A stretch of 64,000 nucleotides of DNA from Zhongshania sp. (GTDB lineage: Bacteria > Pseudomonadota > Gammaproteobacteria > Pseudomonadales > Spongiibacteraceae): the NCBI RefSeq assembly GCF_029212375.1, contig NZ_JARGNU010000008.1:89344-153343 (forward strand), read 5' to 3'. Below, piece after piece: positions 204 through 60,447 of this stretch. The translations under genes and the position numbers were made by a program. The notes below the pieces were generated by a model, which saw only the letters and a list, made by a program, of their open reading frames with translations, was not told where the DNA came from and ran no database searches. The first letter of the stretch is position 1. Every line of letters begins with the position of its first letter.

Positions 204-1562
204 TTAAAGCGCTTCGAATGTCACCGGTAAGCCGTCGGCGGGGAAAATAAGTGGTACCCAGCTGCGCGGCATTTCATATCCGTCTTTGACTTTTATTTGG
301 TAATGGCTAAGCAGGTGAAATAAAAATAACTTGGTTTGAATTTCTGCAAAATTAAGGCCAAGGCATTTGTGCGCGCCGCCGCCGAAGGGCACCCATTGGT
401 AAAAATGTTTTTTGTCTTCGGCGCGGCTTTTGGAAAAGCGCTCTGGATCAAAGCGGTTTGGCTCGGTCCAATATTCTTCCATGTAATGGGTGAATAGTGG
501 CGAGATCGCGACGGCGGTATTTTTAGGAATATGGTAACCCAAAATATCCATGTCTTTTAAGGTGCGGCGTGGAATCGCCGGTACCGCGGGGTACATGCGC
601 AGGGCTTCTTTGAATACCAGTTTGCTGTCTTCTAATTCACCAAGGTCGTCGTAGTCTAGCTGGGGTTTGCCAAGCGCCTTGTATTCATCGCGAAGCCGCT
701 GCTGCCACTCGGGGTTTTTTGCCAAGGCGTAAACAATAGAACAGAGGGTGCTGGTGGTGGTGTCGTGGGCGGCAAACAATAGAAAGATAATATGGTCGCG
801 GACGGCTTCGTCGGAAAAGTGTTTGCCGTCTTCGTCGGTGGCGTGGCAGATCTGCGAAAAAATATCGCGGCCCTCGCCGCGGCGCTTGGCATCAATATGC
901 GCCATGATAAAGTTTTCTAAGTGCTGCCGGCCGCGCAAACCGCGATACCATAGAGTGCCAGGAATCGGCAGCTTAACCACTGCCATTGATGCCAGCATGG
1001 TGTCCACAAACGCTTCGTTAACGCTGCTCGCTTCTTCGCCCATTTCAATGCCAAGGAAAACTTCGGCAGCCACTTCCAGTAATAATTGCTTTACCGCGTA
1101 TTGGAAATGAAATTCTTTACCCTTAGGCCAATTTTTAACACCTTGTTCAAGGTGCGGATTCATGGTGTCTAAGTAGCCTTCGATCGCATTTTTCTTAAAC
1201 GCGCCCTGTAAAATTTTGCGATCGTAGCGATGGGCTTCGGCGTCTTTTAGCATAAGACCGTTGGGGAATAAGCGATCGAGTAATGGGTTCCACGCCAGCA
1301 TGCTGGAGAATTCGCCCGCACTATTTTTTAGCACAATCTCATTGGCTTCGGGGCCGAGTAGGGTGAGGCTGTGTTGAAACAAGGTATTGCCACGAGATAT
1401 TGGCCCGTACTTATTAAAGCGCTGTTCGGTTAATACCTTGTAATTACGTAAAAAACTAAAGGTTTGACCAAACACGGGCATGCCGTTGTCGCCGGGAATA
1501 TGCTCTAGATCGCGGTTTGGGCGACGTGGATATTCTTGGTAATCAATACTCGAACTGCTCAT
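204..1562 (-). CDS. Cytochrome P450
   Basis: A heme monooxygenase of 452 residues, the normal P450 length. The I-helix oxygen-binding motif AAHDTTTS is near residues 264-271, the K-helix ExxR (EALR) near 319-322, and the heme loop FGGGAHKCLG has its axial Cys near 400. No membrane anchor is seen, so it is probably a soluble bacterial enzyme needing ferredoxin partners, none of which is in the window. The reading frame extends 39 codons further upstream, but the ATG at 1562 follows GAGGAAGAAA, a good Shine-Dalgarno. It is divergent from the acyl-CoA dehydrogenase cluster across about 290 bp. That neighbourhood suggests hydroxylation of a lipid, terpenoid or steroid that is then beta-oxidised. 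The substrate is inferred, not shown. Confidence 0.93.
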   Translation of the reverse strand: MSSSSIDYQEYPRRPNRDLEHIPGDNGMPVFGQTFSFLRNYKVLTEQRFNKYGPISRGNTLFQHSLTLLGPEANEIVLKNSAGEFSSMLAWNPLLDRLFPNGLMLKDAEAHRYDRKILQGAFKKNAIEGYLDTMNPHLEQGVKNWPKGKEFHFQYAVKQLLLEVAAEVFLGIEMGEEASSVNEAFVDTMLASMAVVKLPIPGTLWYRGLRGRQHLENFIMAHIDAKRRGEGRDIFSQICHATDEDGKHFSDEAVRDHIIFLLFAAHDTTTSTLCSIVYALAKNPEWQQRLRDEYKALGKPQLDYDDLGELEDSKLVFKEALRMYPAVPAIPRRTLKDMDILGYHIPKNTAVAISPLFTHYMEEYWTEPNRFDPERFSKSRAEDKKHFYQWVPFGGGAHKCLGLNFAEIQTKLFLFHLLSHYQIKVKDGYEMPRSWVPLIFPADGLPVTFEAL

Positions 1563-57222: not shown

Positions 57223-58020
57223 TTAAGCGCTGCGAGCGGCACTGCTGGTGTTACTGCCACTTAAACTGTCGTGCAGGCTCAGCAATTGCTGGGTGAGTTT
57301 GTGCGAGGGCGCGAAATGAATCATCGGGCTTTGCCTGCTGCGAGATTCTTTCATTTTGACCGAACTGCTTAGGTATTGCTCAAAAATAGGCAGGCCGCTT
57401 TCCTTCATGCTTTCAATTAATTGAGTGGGTAAGCTCGCTTGAGATTGGAACTGATTAACCACAATGCCCTCTAGGCTGAGCTCGGGGTTGTGGTCTTCGC
57501 GAATTTCTTCCACGGTTTCCATTAGGCCCATTAATGCGCCCTGTGAAAAGCTGTCGCAGTCAAAGGGTATCAGCAGTGAATCGGCGGCAATCAAGGCCGA
57601 GCGGCTGTAAAAGTTGAGAGCCGGCGGCGTATCAATATAAATGTGTTCGTACTCGGCCTGCAGCTTGTTTAGGGCATCGCGCAGCTTATAAATTTTGTGG
57701 CGAGTTTCTAGCTCACGCTCAAGTACTGCCAATTCGGGGTGCGAGGGCATTAGGTAGAGGTTTTCGAATTCGGTTTCGTATATGCAGTCTGCCGCTTCTT
57801 TGCTTTTGCCAAACAAAGACAGTTTTTGTTTAAAGAAGTCGGCGGCATTGTCTTCTAAATCCCGAAATTGGGCGCCGATTAGGTATTCACTGCTATTACC
57901 TTGAATATCTAAGTCAATAACCAGTGTTTTAAAGCCTTTCCATGCACTGATTGCTGCTAAATTACAGGTGATACTGGTTTTGCCAACACCACCTTTCTGG
58001 TTAAAGATCACCCGTTTCAT
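57223..58020 (-). CDS. ParA-family ATPase
   Basis: A deviant-Walker ATPase of 265 residues. Walker A' FNQKGGVGKTSITCNLAA is near 5-22, Walker A'-proximal LVIDLDIQGNSSEYL near 35-49, and YIDTPPALNFYSRSALIAADSLLIPFDCDSFSQGALMGL near 120-158. CAGGACAGAGCC precedes the ATG at 58020. No ParB gene is beside it, so it is an orphan ParA-like positioning protein, not the chromosome partition locus. It lies 92 nt downstream of the DUF1145 gene on the same strand. Confidence 0.92.
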   Translation of the reverse strand: MKRVIFNQKGGVGKTSITCNLAAISAWKGFKTLVIDLDIQGNSSEYLIGAQFRDLEDNAADFFKQKLSLFGKSKEAADCIYETEFENLYLMPSHPELAVLERELETRHKIYKLRDALNKLQAEYEHIYIDTPPALNFYSRSALIAADSLLIPFDCDSFSQGALMGLMETVEEIREDHNPELSLEGIVVNQFQSQASLPTQLIESMKESGLPIFEQYLSSSVKMKESRSRQSPMIHFAPSHKLTQQLLSLHDSLSGSNTSSAARSA

Positions 58021-58112
58021 GGCTCTGTCCTGAGAAATTTTGCTAAAAATGAATCCTAGCAGCTCTCGTGCCACGGTGCTATGACCGGTCGCTGGCCTTG
58101 GCGGGTACACGC

Positions 58113-58367
58113 TTAACGCTTTTTGCCTATCCATTCACCAGTGCGCAACACCCCAAAGAGCATCACCACTAAATAGCCTTCGGCGGGTTTGGAATAGTTG
58201 GCGCGCACATGCTTGCGGAAAATAACACACTCAATCATATGAACTACGGCAAAAGTGACACCGGTCCACTGCAGCCACGCACTGTATTCGCCTAATAGTG
58301 GAAAGTGGGAGTTCACCGCAAAACCTAGCCAAAAAACCAACATCAATACTTTGCCAAAATTATTCAT
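58113..58367 (-). CDS. DUF1145 membrane protein
   Basis: A protein of 84 residues with two or three hydrophobic helices (VLMLVFWLGFAVNSHFPL, WLQWTGVTFAVVHMIECVIF and VVMLFGVLRTGEWI). It fits the short DUF1145 family of gammaproteobacterial inner-membrane proteins of unknown function. The ATG at 58367 is not preceded by a clear ribosome site. It is divergent from the riboflavin synthase paralogue. Confidence 0.85.
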   Translation of the reverse strand: MNNFGKVLMLVFWLGFAVNSHFPLLGEYSAWLQWTGVTFAVVHMIECVIFRKHVRANYSKPAEGYLVVMLFGVLRTGEWIGKKR

Positions 58368-59191: not shown

Positions 59192-59392
59192 ATGGATCAT
59201 ATCCCCTCTATCAGTGCGCGAATTTTGCTATTGCAGATTCGCCACCGTGCATTAGACGAAAAAATAAGCGAATTGGCAGCCAATCCCTATCAAAATCAAT
59301 TATTACTGCAGCGCCTTAAAAAGGAAAAACTGCGTATTAAAGACGATATAGAGCTGCTAAAGGATGATTTGATACCAGATTTAGATGCGTAA
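59192..59392 (+). CDS. YdcH/DUF465-like small protein
   Basis: A protein of 66 residues, one helical hairpin: ILLLQIRHRALDEKISELAANPYQNQLLLQRLKKEKLRIKDDIELL. The HRALDEKI and LKKEKLRIKDDI parts are the DUF465 signature. Function unknown. It is the last gene before the sRNA locus at 59.43 kb. Confidence 0.88.
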   Translation: MDHIPSISARILLLQIRHRALDEKISELAANPYQNQLLLQRLKKEKLRIKDDIELLKDDLIPDLDA

Positions 59393-59429: not shown

Positions 59430-59447
59430 TGTGAGATATATCTCACA
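59430..59447. promoter_or_regulatory. GacA/UvrY box, 18-bp perfect palindrome
   Basis: TGTGAGATATATCTCACA fits the GacA/UvrY/LetA binding pattern TGTRAG-N6-CTYACA (E. coli UvrY and Pseudomonas GacA sites). It lies about 60 bp upstream of the predicted start of the sRNA below, with CATAAT (59491-59496) as -10. A CRP site was excluded because TGTGA and TCACA are 8, not 6, bp apart. Confidence 0.7.
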
Positions 59448-59501
59448 CCCAGCGTCGGTGTTTTCCACTGTTGAATCATTTAGAAAGGGGCATAATAGCC
59501 A

Positions 59502-59593
59502 TTGTCAGGATGACTTAGGCATTCAACGGATTGAATGCGACATTGGATGTTAAAATTCTAAAAACCGGAGCAATTCATTGCTCCGGTTTTTTT
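59502..59593 (+). ncRNA. Probable CsrA/RsmA-sequestering small RNA (RsmY/RsmZ-like)
   Basis: About 92 nt, with no open frame. Three hairpins place GGA in the loop: GTCA-GGA-TGAC (59504-59514); an 8-bp perfect stem GCATTCAA/TTGAATGC with loop CGGA (59519-59538); and ACA-TTGGA-TGT (59540-59550). It ends in an intrinsic terminator, AACCGGAGCAA/TTGCTCCGGTT around TTCA with a T-run (59560-59593). GGA in hairpin loops is the CsrA/RsmA binding determinant, and the 5' GTCAGGA resembles that of pseudomonad RsmY. Upstream lie a -10 (CATAAT) with a poor -35, and a GacA box, as expected of a Gac-activated promoter. The start site is an estimate. Alternatives: another terminator-bearing sRNA. Confidence 0.7.
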
Positions 59594-59655: not shown

Positions 59656-60447
59656 ATGACCGACCGTAATTTTGATGGCATTGCTGAGCGCTTCCGTAAA
59701 AATATTTATGGCAACCCCAAGGGTGAGCTGCGCTTAGCGCTGTGTTGGCGCGAGTTATTAGCCAAGGTGCCAGCCCTTAACGAGAGCGTGCTGCCCAGTG
59801 GGCAGGCAATGAGCGTGTGGGACGCCGGCGGTGGCTTGGGGCAAATGAGTATTCGCCTTGCTGAATGTGGCCACCAAGTATTATTGAACGATGTGTCGGC
59901 GGATATGCTGGCGATCGCCGAGGCTGATATTGCGGCGGCGGGGGTGGCCGACCGAGTTGTTCTGCACCATGCGGCAATTCAAGATTTAGCTACTGCTGAG
60001 CATCGCGAGGCTTTTGACCTAGTGCTGTGTCACGCGGTGCTAGAGTGGGTAAAAGAGCCAGAGGATATTATTGCGGCGCTAGTTGCCGGTATGCGTCCCG
60101 GCGCGTATTTGTCGTTAATGTTTTACAACCTAAATGCCCTGATTATTAGCAATATGGCCAAGGGCAATTTATATAAGCTTCGCGATCGTGATTTTGCCGG
60201 CCATCCAGGCGGGCTTACCCCGCCGGCGCCGCGTCAGCCCCAAGAGATGATGGCCATCCTGGAAGCTGCTGGTTTAGAGATTGTCGCTAAACGAGGTATT
60301 CGCTTGGTTTACGACTTAATGCCACGCGCGGTGCGCGCCGAACGCAGCGTGCCGGATGTGCTAGCCCTAGAGTGGCAGTATGGCGCGGAAGAGCCCTTTT
60401 GGGCGCTGGGCCGCTATGTGCACTTGCTGTGTCGGCGACCCATCTGA
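59656..60447 (+). CDS. cmoM: tRNA 5-carboxymethoxyuridine methyltransferase CmoM
   Basis: A SAM-dependent methyltransferase of 263 residues that forms the methyl ester of cmo5U34 in tRNA. The N-terminal DRNFDGIAERFRKNIYGNPKGELR is diagnostic. The SAM motif is VWDAGGGLGQMSIRLAE near 54-70, then LLNDVSADMLAIAE, LVLCHAVLEWVKEP and LSLMFYNLNALIISNMAKGN. No strong ribosome site is seen before the ATG. It is transcribed away from the sRNA terminator, which separates it from the YdcH gene. Confidence 0.94.
   Translation: MTDRNFDGIAERFRKNIYGNPKGELRLALCWRELLAKVPALNESVLPSGQAMSVWDAGGGLGQMSIRLAECGHQVLLNDVSADMLAIAEADIAAAGVADRVVLHHAAIQDLATAEHREAFDLVLCHAVLEWVKEPEDIIAALVAGMRPGAYLSLMFYNLNALIISNMAKGNLYKLRDRDFAGHPGGLTPPAPRQPQEMMAILEAAGLEIVAKRGIRLVYDLMPRAVRAERSVPDVLALEWQYGAEEPFWALGRYVHLLCRRPI

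Follow-up and report, generated by a model that had tools for sequence, protein, structure and literature searches.

A predicted Rsm/Csr-type small RNA gene behind a GacA-type box at the ydcH-cmoM locus of Zhongshania

The interval between a ydcH-like and a cmoM-like gene in Zhongshania sp. raises the question of whether it holds the gene of a small RNA that antagonizes CsrA (RsmA) under the control of GacA (UvrY). We analysed a stretch of 64,000 nucleotides from contig NZ_JARGNU010000008.1, hereafter the window, in which a first-pass annotation made from the sequence had placed an unannotated locus of this kind at positions 59430-59593. Our analysis leads us to regard this segment as, very probably, a compact Rsm/Csr-type sRNA gene whose product is a GacA-activated CsrA antagonist; we infer its transcription, the direct binding of GacA, the binding of CsrA and the titration that would follow.

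The locus, its box and its promoter

Both neighbours that had been named for the locus, YdcH and cmoM, were recovered by profile searches. The upstream gene (59192-59392, plus strand) is ydcH-like (DUF465; Pfam PF04325, 44.5 bits, cut-off 25), with the riboflavin synthase gene ribE further upstream. The downstream gene (59656-60447, plus strand) codes for a cmoM-like methyltransferase: its product carries methyltransferase domains and has CmoM as its best NCBIfam model, at 241 bits, which is below the cut-off of 366. In pseudomonads the rsm genes are located elsewhere. Farther out, the minus strand of the window at 57223-58134 holds an ORF whose translation resembles a ParA/MinD-like ATPase, next to ribE and to a small ORF that looks like a membrane protein.

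Beginning 37 nt past the ydcH-like stop codon is a perfect 18-bp palindrome, TGTGAGATATATCTCACA (59430-59447, no strand assigned), which matches the GacA/UvrY-type pattern TGTRAG-N6-CTYACA with no mismatches. It is the sole exact match to this pattern in the window and in the whole genome (29 contigs, 3.80 Mb). When one mismatch is allowed, nine sites are found genome-wide, the exact one included, compared with eight for a reversed-pattern control, so the remaining eight one-mismatch boxes are at chance level. We classify the palindrome as a GacA/UvrY-type box on the basis of the pattern match, its conservation in the genus and its form, which is that of the csrB site TGTGAGAGATCTCTTACA.

A -10 element, CATAAT, was recognized by sequence at 59491-59496 on the plus strand, and ATAAT is present in 14 of the 18 genomes of the genus. 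A sigma-70 promoter scan of the region returned no consensus promoter, from which we take the -35 element to be weak or absent. Thus the GacA-type palindrome and the CATAAT with a weak -35, both described in the first-pass annotation, were confirmed, the former as a single exact match in the genome. The centre of the box lies about 64 nt upstream of the predicted RNA start. Phosphorylated GacA (UvrY) would bind the 18-bp box at this distance and would help RNA polymerase onto the CATAAT promoter, a good -35 being absent. In three relatives (G009, G006 and G016) a palindrome of about 40 bp, perfect or nearly so, has the box at its core and extends towards ydcH, unlike in the window, where perfect symmetry stops at 18 bp; the longer palindrome could reflect an extra protein contact or, as another possibility, a hairpin at the 3' end of ydcH.

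GacA binding is read here from the sequence of the site, and the genome gives 41 GacA-model matches at E <= 0.001, mostly other response regulators or receiver domains. The RNA might accordingly be a CsrA-binding sRNA whose palindrome is read by a CRP-like protein or by another regulator of the NarL/FixJ type, in which case the link to GacS/GacA would be wrong. We consider this quite unlikely. The arms TGTGA and TCACA do resemble CRP sites, in which they are separated by 6 nt; here they are separated by 8 nt, and the reading as a CRP site was rejected on this spacing. No mismatch separates the site from the UvrY-type pattern (consensus TGTAAGNNNNNNCTTACA, from the available text of PMC4682653), and the box is enriched across the order, often with a GGA-rich RNA adjacent to it. 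According to the same available text, phosphorylated UvrY footprints an 18-nt palindrome of the same kind at csrB (TGTGAGAGATCTCTTACA) and at csrC, these two genes are by far the strongest UvrY targets, and a ChIP-on-chip study cited there concluded that in P. aeruginosa GacA acts directly on rsmY and rsmZ only (PMC4682653). We retain GacA (UvrY) as the predicted activator in what follows.

The predicted RNA and its conservation in the genus

The predicted sRNA gene spans 92 nt on the plus strand (59502-59593), with its start placed from the -10 element and the first conserved alignment columns. The RNA folds at -32.4 kcal/mol (z = -5.5), and none of 200 shuffled sequences was equally stable; a large share of this stability comes from the terminator. 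Hairpin 1 (GUC-AGGAU-GAC, 59504-59514, plus strand) carries a GGA at 59508-59510 within CAGGAUG, which is the CsrB repeat. Hairpin 2 (59519-59538, plus strand) has, as had been noted, a perfect 8-bp stem, GCAUUCAA/UUGAAUGC, and the loop CGGA, with its GGA at 59528-59530. Hairpin 3 (GACA-UUGGA-UGUU, 59539-59551, plus strand; GGA at 59545-59547) is weak here and better formed in most relatives. Of the three GGA-loop hairpins, 1 and 2 are in the minimum free energy (MFE) structure, whereas hairpin 3 lies outside it, although its pairing is kept across the genus. In the MFE structure of the window RNA the third GGA pairs with a downstream AUUC, and its partition-function probability of being unpaired is 0.35.

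The RNA is closed, as proposed, by an intrinsic terminator (59560-59593, plus strand) with an A-rich/GC stem, a UUCA loop and seven U residues, which ends 62 nt before the start of the cmoM-like gene. A simple terminator scan of the region returned none, though the helix with its seven T residues is plain in both sequence and fold; we think that pairing of the T run with an A run hid it from the scan. A fourth GGA (59567-59569) lies within the paired stem of the terminator, unexposed. The strict motif ANGGA occurs in the middle loop only, and at least one ANGGA is found in 14.5% of the 92-nt stretches on the plus strand of the window, so we rejected the strict ANGGA count as a mark of this RNA. 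The GGA motifs of one genome do not go beyond chance, and the case consequently rests on conservation in all 18 genomes of the genus.

We searched 57 genomes, the source genome included, with a 186-base DNA query and then read the loci individually. The RNA element was found in 18 of the 18 genus genomes examined, each with the ydcH neighbour upstream (tblastn at the loci); cmoM was detected within the examined stretch at 16 of these loci, the misses being G010 and G004. By hand count, the box is exact in 12 genomes and has one mismatch in four, two in G011 and three in G002, and box start and RNA start are 72 nt apart in 14 genomes and 73 nt apart in the other four. In the 18-row alignment (A1) the three hairpin GGA triplets are invariant columns and their loop neighbours vary. 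Hairpin 1 reads CAGGA(U/A/C)G in 16 genomes, with GUCUGGA replacing GUCAGGA in G002 and G011, and hairpin 2 reads ANGGA in all 18. The alignment varies most, with gaps, in the linker ahead of the terminator. Box and GGA loops are thus conserved in relatives, which is where the first-pass reading was open to contradiction by sequence.

Pairing is conserved as well. Over the whole structure, 98.3% of the cells of A1 are paired, and seven pairs have changed on both sides, compared with 2.0 in shuffled alignments. When the pairing partner is slid by one to three columns, pairing falls to 28-36%; we prefer this control, as related rows may exceed shuffles without there being a structure. When only the three GGA hairpins are considered, 97.4% of cells are paired and three pairs have changed on both sides, compared with 0.5 in shuffles (one of 500 shuffles was as high). 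Two of these pairs are in hairpin 2, which has the strongest covariation, one is in hairpin 1 and none is in hairpin 3, whose pairing is kept in 94.4% of cells across the genus. In the terminator stem, both partners have changed at four pairs. Partition-function folding leaves the GGA of hairpin 1 at least half unpaired in 14 of the 18 genomes, that of hairpin 2 in 17 and that of hairpin 3 in 15; the source genome is among the three that fall short for hairpin 3.

Since ydcH, the element and cmoM are co-directional, and the highest-scoring Rfam match there is to Leu_leader, below threshold (31.4 bits, gathering threshold 50), the segment might contain no independent RNA and be instead the ydcH 3'-UTR or terminator, or else a leader that attenuates cmoM. 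This appears extremely improbable to us, given that the spacing from box to RNA is fixed in all 18 genomes, that the terminator stops short of cmoM by the 62 nt given above, that one genome outside the genus (G048) carries a tandem duplication of box plus RNA, and that in a sibling genus an extra ORF stands between ydcH and the box.

It is also improbable, in our judgement, that a GacA-controlled sRNA here acts mainly by base-pairing with mRNAs, its GGA loops serving pairing or stability, in the manner of pseudomonad RgsA. The GGA triplets are invariant in all three hairpins, the greatest variation falls in the linker to the terminator, and the sibling genus has GGA-rich RNAs at the corresponding position, though one of them (in G018) escapes the model of the genus RNA. 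RgsA itself, as described in the available text of PMC2375449, bears on the question in two ways: it is Gac-controlled, has a single GGA and fails to derepress the RsmA target hcnA, which together with the few GGA sites of the RNA studied here would favour base-pairing; and with its one GGA and an upstream element unrelated to the GacA palindrome it is a poor counterpart of the present locus. The same text reports that sequestration of RsmA needs several GGA motifs and that a single-GGA RNA fails (PMC2375449). As a CsrA antagonist, the RNA of about 92 nt would present two or three GGA hairpins to CsrA (RsmA) and would titrate CsrA dimers off mRNAs, whose control would thereby be relieved.

The Gac and Csr proteins and the number of RNAs

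We found the expected protein partners in the genome. GacA/UvrY is encoded directly before uvrC (617 bits) and scores 286 bits (cut-off 280). CsrA scores 118 bits (cut-off 73), its residues 1-56 align to solved CsrA/RsmA chains, and its gene follows an aspartokinase-like gene recognized from translation. A hybrid kinase gives a near-full-length best match to GacS/BarA at 734.5 bits, below the curated cut-off of 890, with the next match at 449; by its sequence it is likely to be GacS/BarA. Among the 57 genomes, 46 have a GacA/UvrY match at E <= 1e-60, 35 of these above the cut-off, and CsrA is present in all 57, the source genome included, with two to nine CsrA matches in several relatives. All 18 genus genomes have the GacA/UvrY match at E <= 1e-60, 13 of them above the curated cut-off and one (G003) as a partial match. 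By its box, its conserved GGA loops and the GacA and CsrA encoded alongside, the RNA appears to belong to the class of GacA/UvrY-activated Rsm/Csr antagonists. The first-pass reading as such an antagonist is therefore upheld in substance by the conserved box and GGA triplets and by the encoded GacA/UvrY, CsrA and probable GacS/BarA; we count against it that at most three GGA are exposed in the window RNA.

A second, divergent CsrA-like protein is encoded at 1054-1284 (minus strand) of G000:C13:258000-260500, scoring 37.9 bits with PF02599 and 33.7 bits with the NCBIfam CsrA model (cut-off 73). Its gene adjoins ORFs that by eye are phage zinc-ribbon-like and DNA methyltransferase-like, and it is possibly prophage-borne.

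Rfam searches at E <= 10 (over 9 kb and over 121 bases) and at the gathering threshold (over the window) returned no match to an Rsm/Csr family, so that 'unannotated' is correct as regards Rfam, no family reaching the gathering threshold over the RNA. The matches around the RNA are sub-threshold chance matches, many of them carried by the terminator, and the window contains one tRNA. With the RsmY (RF00195) and PrrB_RsmZ (RF00166) models the RNA scores below the gathering threshold, and with the CsrB model (RF00018) it scores 7.5 bits, compared with a threshold of 71. A search of 50 loci at the gathering threshold likewise returned nothing, and the RsmY and RsmZ models exceed their cut-offs only in family f21, in seven of 194 genomes each. 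These negative results say little, as 30 box loci from other families are also without an Rfam match at the gathering threshold.

Is this RNA the organism's only antagonist, as the singular used at first pass implied? The genome yielded no second box-driven candidate, a search that Gac-independent RNAs could escape. By eye, none of the eight other one-mismatch boxes has a GGA-loop RNA with a terminator. Two further candidates for a second RNA were rejected on inspection: a weak covariance-model match at C13:104070, which is a tRNA followed by a terminator, and a sub-threshold RsmY match at C5:114043, which falls on the terminator-bearing end of a pnp-like gene. Elsewhere in the genus, one match to the degenerate box TGTRNGANATNTCNYACA was counted in G008, but the box at its ydcH locus ends in CACG and is off-pattern; this implies another box elsewhere in G008, perhaps with a second RNA, and counts against a single copy throughout the genus.

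Relatives beyond the genus and known systems

We built a covariance model from A1 and searched 390 genomes of the order. Strong matches were confined to the genus (17 genus genomes drawn, E <= 3.5e-13, all training rows). Matches were tallied in 157 of the 390 genomes, which is not a count of true homologues: the seven weak matches that were read (G157, G346, G287, G162, G291, G067 and G192) resemble ordinary terminators or the ends of genes or tRNAs and were rejected. Three matched units in family f29 appear from their sequences to be real, one in G085 (E = 2.7e-5) and two in tandem in G048 (2.7e-4 and 0.011; on G048:C18, JAQGNY010000040.1). Each has the box, ATAAT, three conserved GGA and a terminator, and in all three the box lies 73 nt from the start, as in the window, when the start is set six bases after ATAAT. 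A ydcH homologue adjoins the box in G085 and lies about 640 nt from the pair in G048. In full-length folds the three GGA are mostly unpaired (0.71-1.0), the second G048 unit having an additional GGA at 0.37; folds cut without the terminators have weak z-scores (-0.19 and -1.19), and not every unit clearly shows the regular three-hairpin arrangement seen in the genus. A similar element with a one-mismatch box in G064 (family f45) is probably real.

By hand count, the degenerate form of the box occurs in 142 of the 390 genomes, compared with eight for the reversed pattern. At 30 box loci outside the genus (the first ones listed, and so non-random; two are f29 loci), the mean number of ANGGA on the better strand is 3.6, compared with 0.80 at 480 control positions from the same loci, processed alike. 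At least six GGA were found at 17 of these 30 loci, compared with 67 of the 480 control positions; the other 13 have fewer than six on the better strand. Genomes G018 and G019 of the sibling genus carry the box, a GGA-rich RNA (five and eight GGA in the counted stretch) and a terminator before cmoM, with ydcH upstream and an ORF of about 205 codons separating ydcH from the box. The G018 RNA was undetected by the covariance model of the genus. Box and neighbourhood are thus kept in the sibling genus while the body of the RNA changes. A second box in G018 has no such GGA-rich RNA beside it. The box was not found in the sibling genome G020 (70% complete), and G019 (89% complete), in which box and RNA are both present, gave no GacA match at E <= 1e-60. 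The G019 RNA, at about 1560-1740 of G019:C30, contains a run of repeats of the AACGGAUU / AAUGGAUU type and is apparently a much richer sponge.

With RsmX, RsmY and RsmZ of Pseudomonas the predicted RNA shares an upstream GacA-type palindrome, a length of about 100 nt, GGA hairpin loops and an intrinsic terminator, and also GacA and CsrA/RsmA in the genome; it differs in that the RsmY and RsmZ models fail, in its fewer GGA and in its ydcH-cmoM locus. Nearest in number of sites are RsmX-1 and RsmX-2 of P. brassicacearum (six GGA, two to four of them exposed); that species has four such RNAs, compared with one copy found here, the RsmX pair, RsmY and RsmZ having 6, 7 and 10 GGA in the available text of PMC7911923. 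The 18-bp UvrY palindrome is shared with csrB and csrC of E. coli, and the csrB site fits the same degenerate pattern, but its centre is at -183/-182 rather than at about -64 (PMC4682653, available text). CsrB and CsrC carry 22 and 14 GGA, compared with four here, by the available text of PMC11882849, which also notes that sequence conservation is usually absent among Csr/Rsm sponge RNAs and that they are hard to find by similarity. Its Pseudoalteromonas fuliginea RNAs Pf1-Pf3 resemble the present one in coming from a marine gammaproteobacterium, in having a conserved upstream sequence, GGA motifs and a terminator, and in having been recognized by such features; unlike here, there are three of them, with 25, 21 and 9 GGA (PMC11882849).

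As far as a limited literature search shows, with subscription papers mostly outside it, the kind of RNA is ordinary, and the locus and host group are new; in its available form, the table of selected predictions in PMC5568370 contains no organism of this group. The RNA is apparently somewhat unusual in being very small and, in the source genome, alone. We tentatively propose, as an idea that may well prove wrong, that here and perhaps in most of the genus the whole output of GacA passes through one three-site sponge, near the minimum for CsrA titration, and that ydcH-cmoM is a lasting home at which the box stays and the RNA body is rebuilt between genera, in which case the orthology of Rsm RNAs would lie in position and box, not in sequence. 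The support for a rebuilt body comes from the three exposed GGA here, the five and eight GGA in the sibling genus and the tandem pair in another family.

Rfam covers few Csr/Rsm sponges, with none of the 30 box loci from other families matching at the gathering threshold, and the box form TGTRNGANATNTCNYACA offers a nearly clean handle on sponge RNAs across the order (142 genomes, compared with eight in the control). The ydcH-cmoM locus lets the evolution of the RNA body be followed with the promoter element kept, and a genome with one such RNA would be a simple setting for measuring how few CsrA sites suffice.
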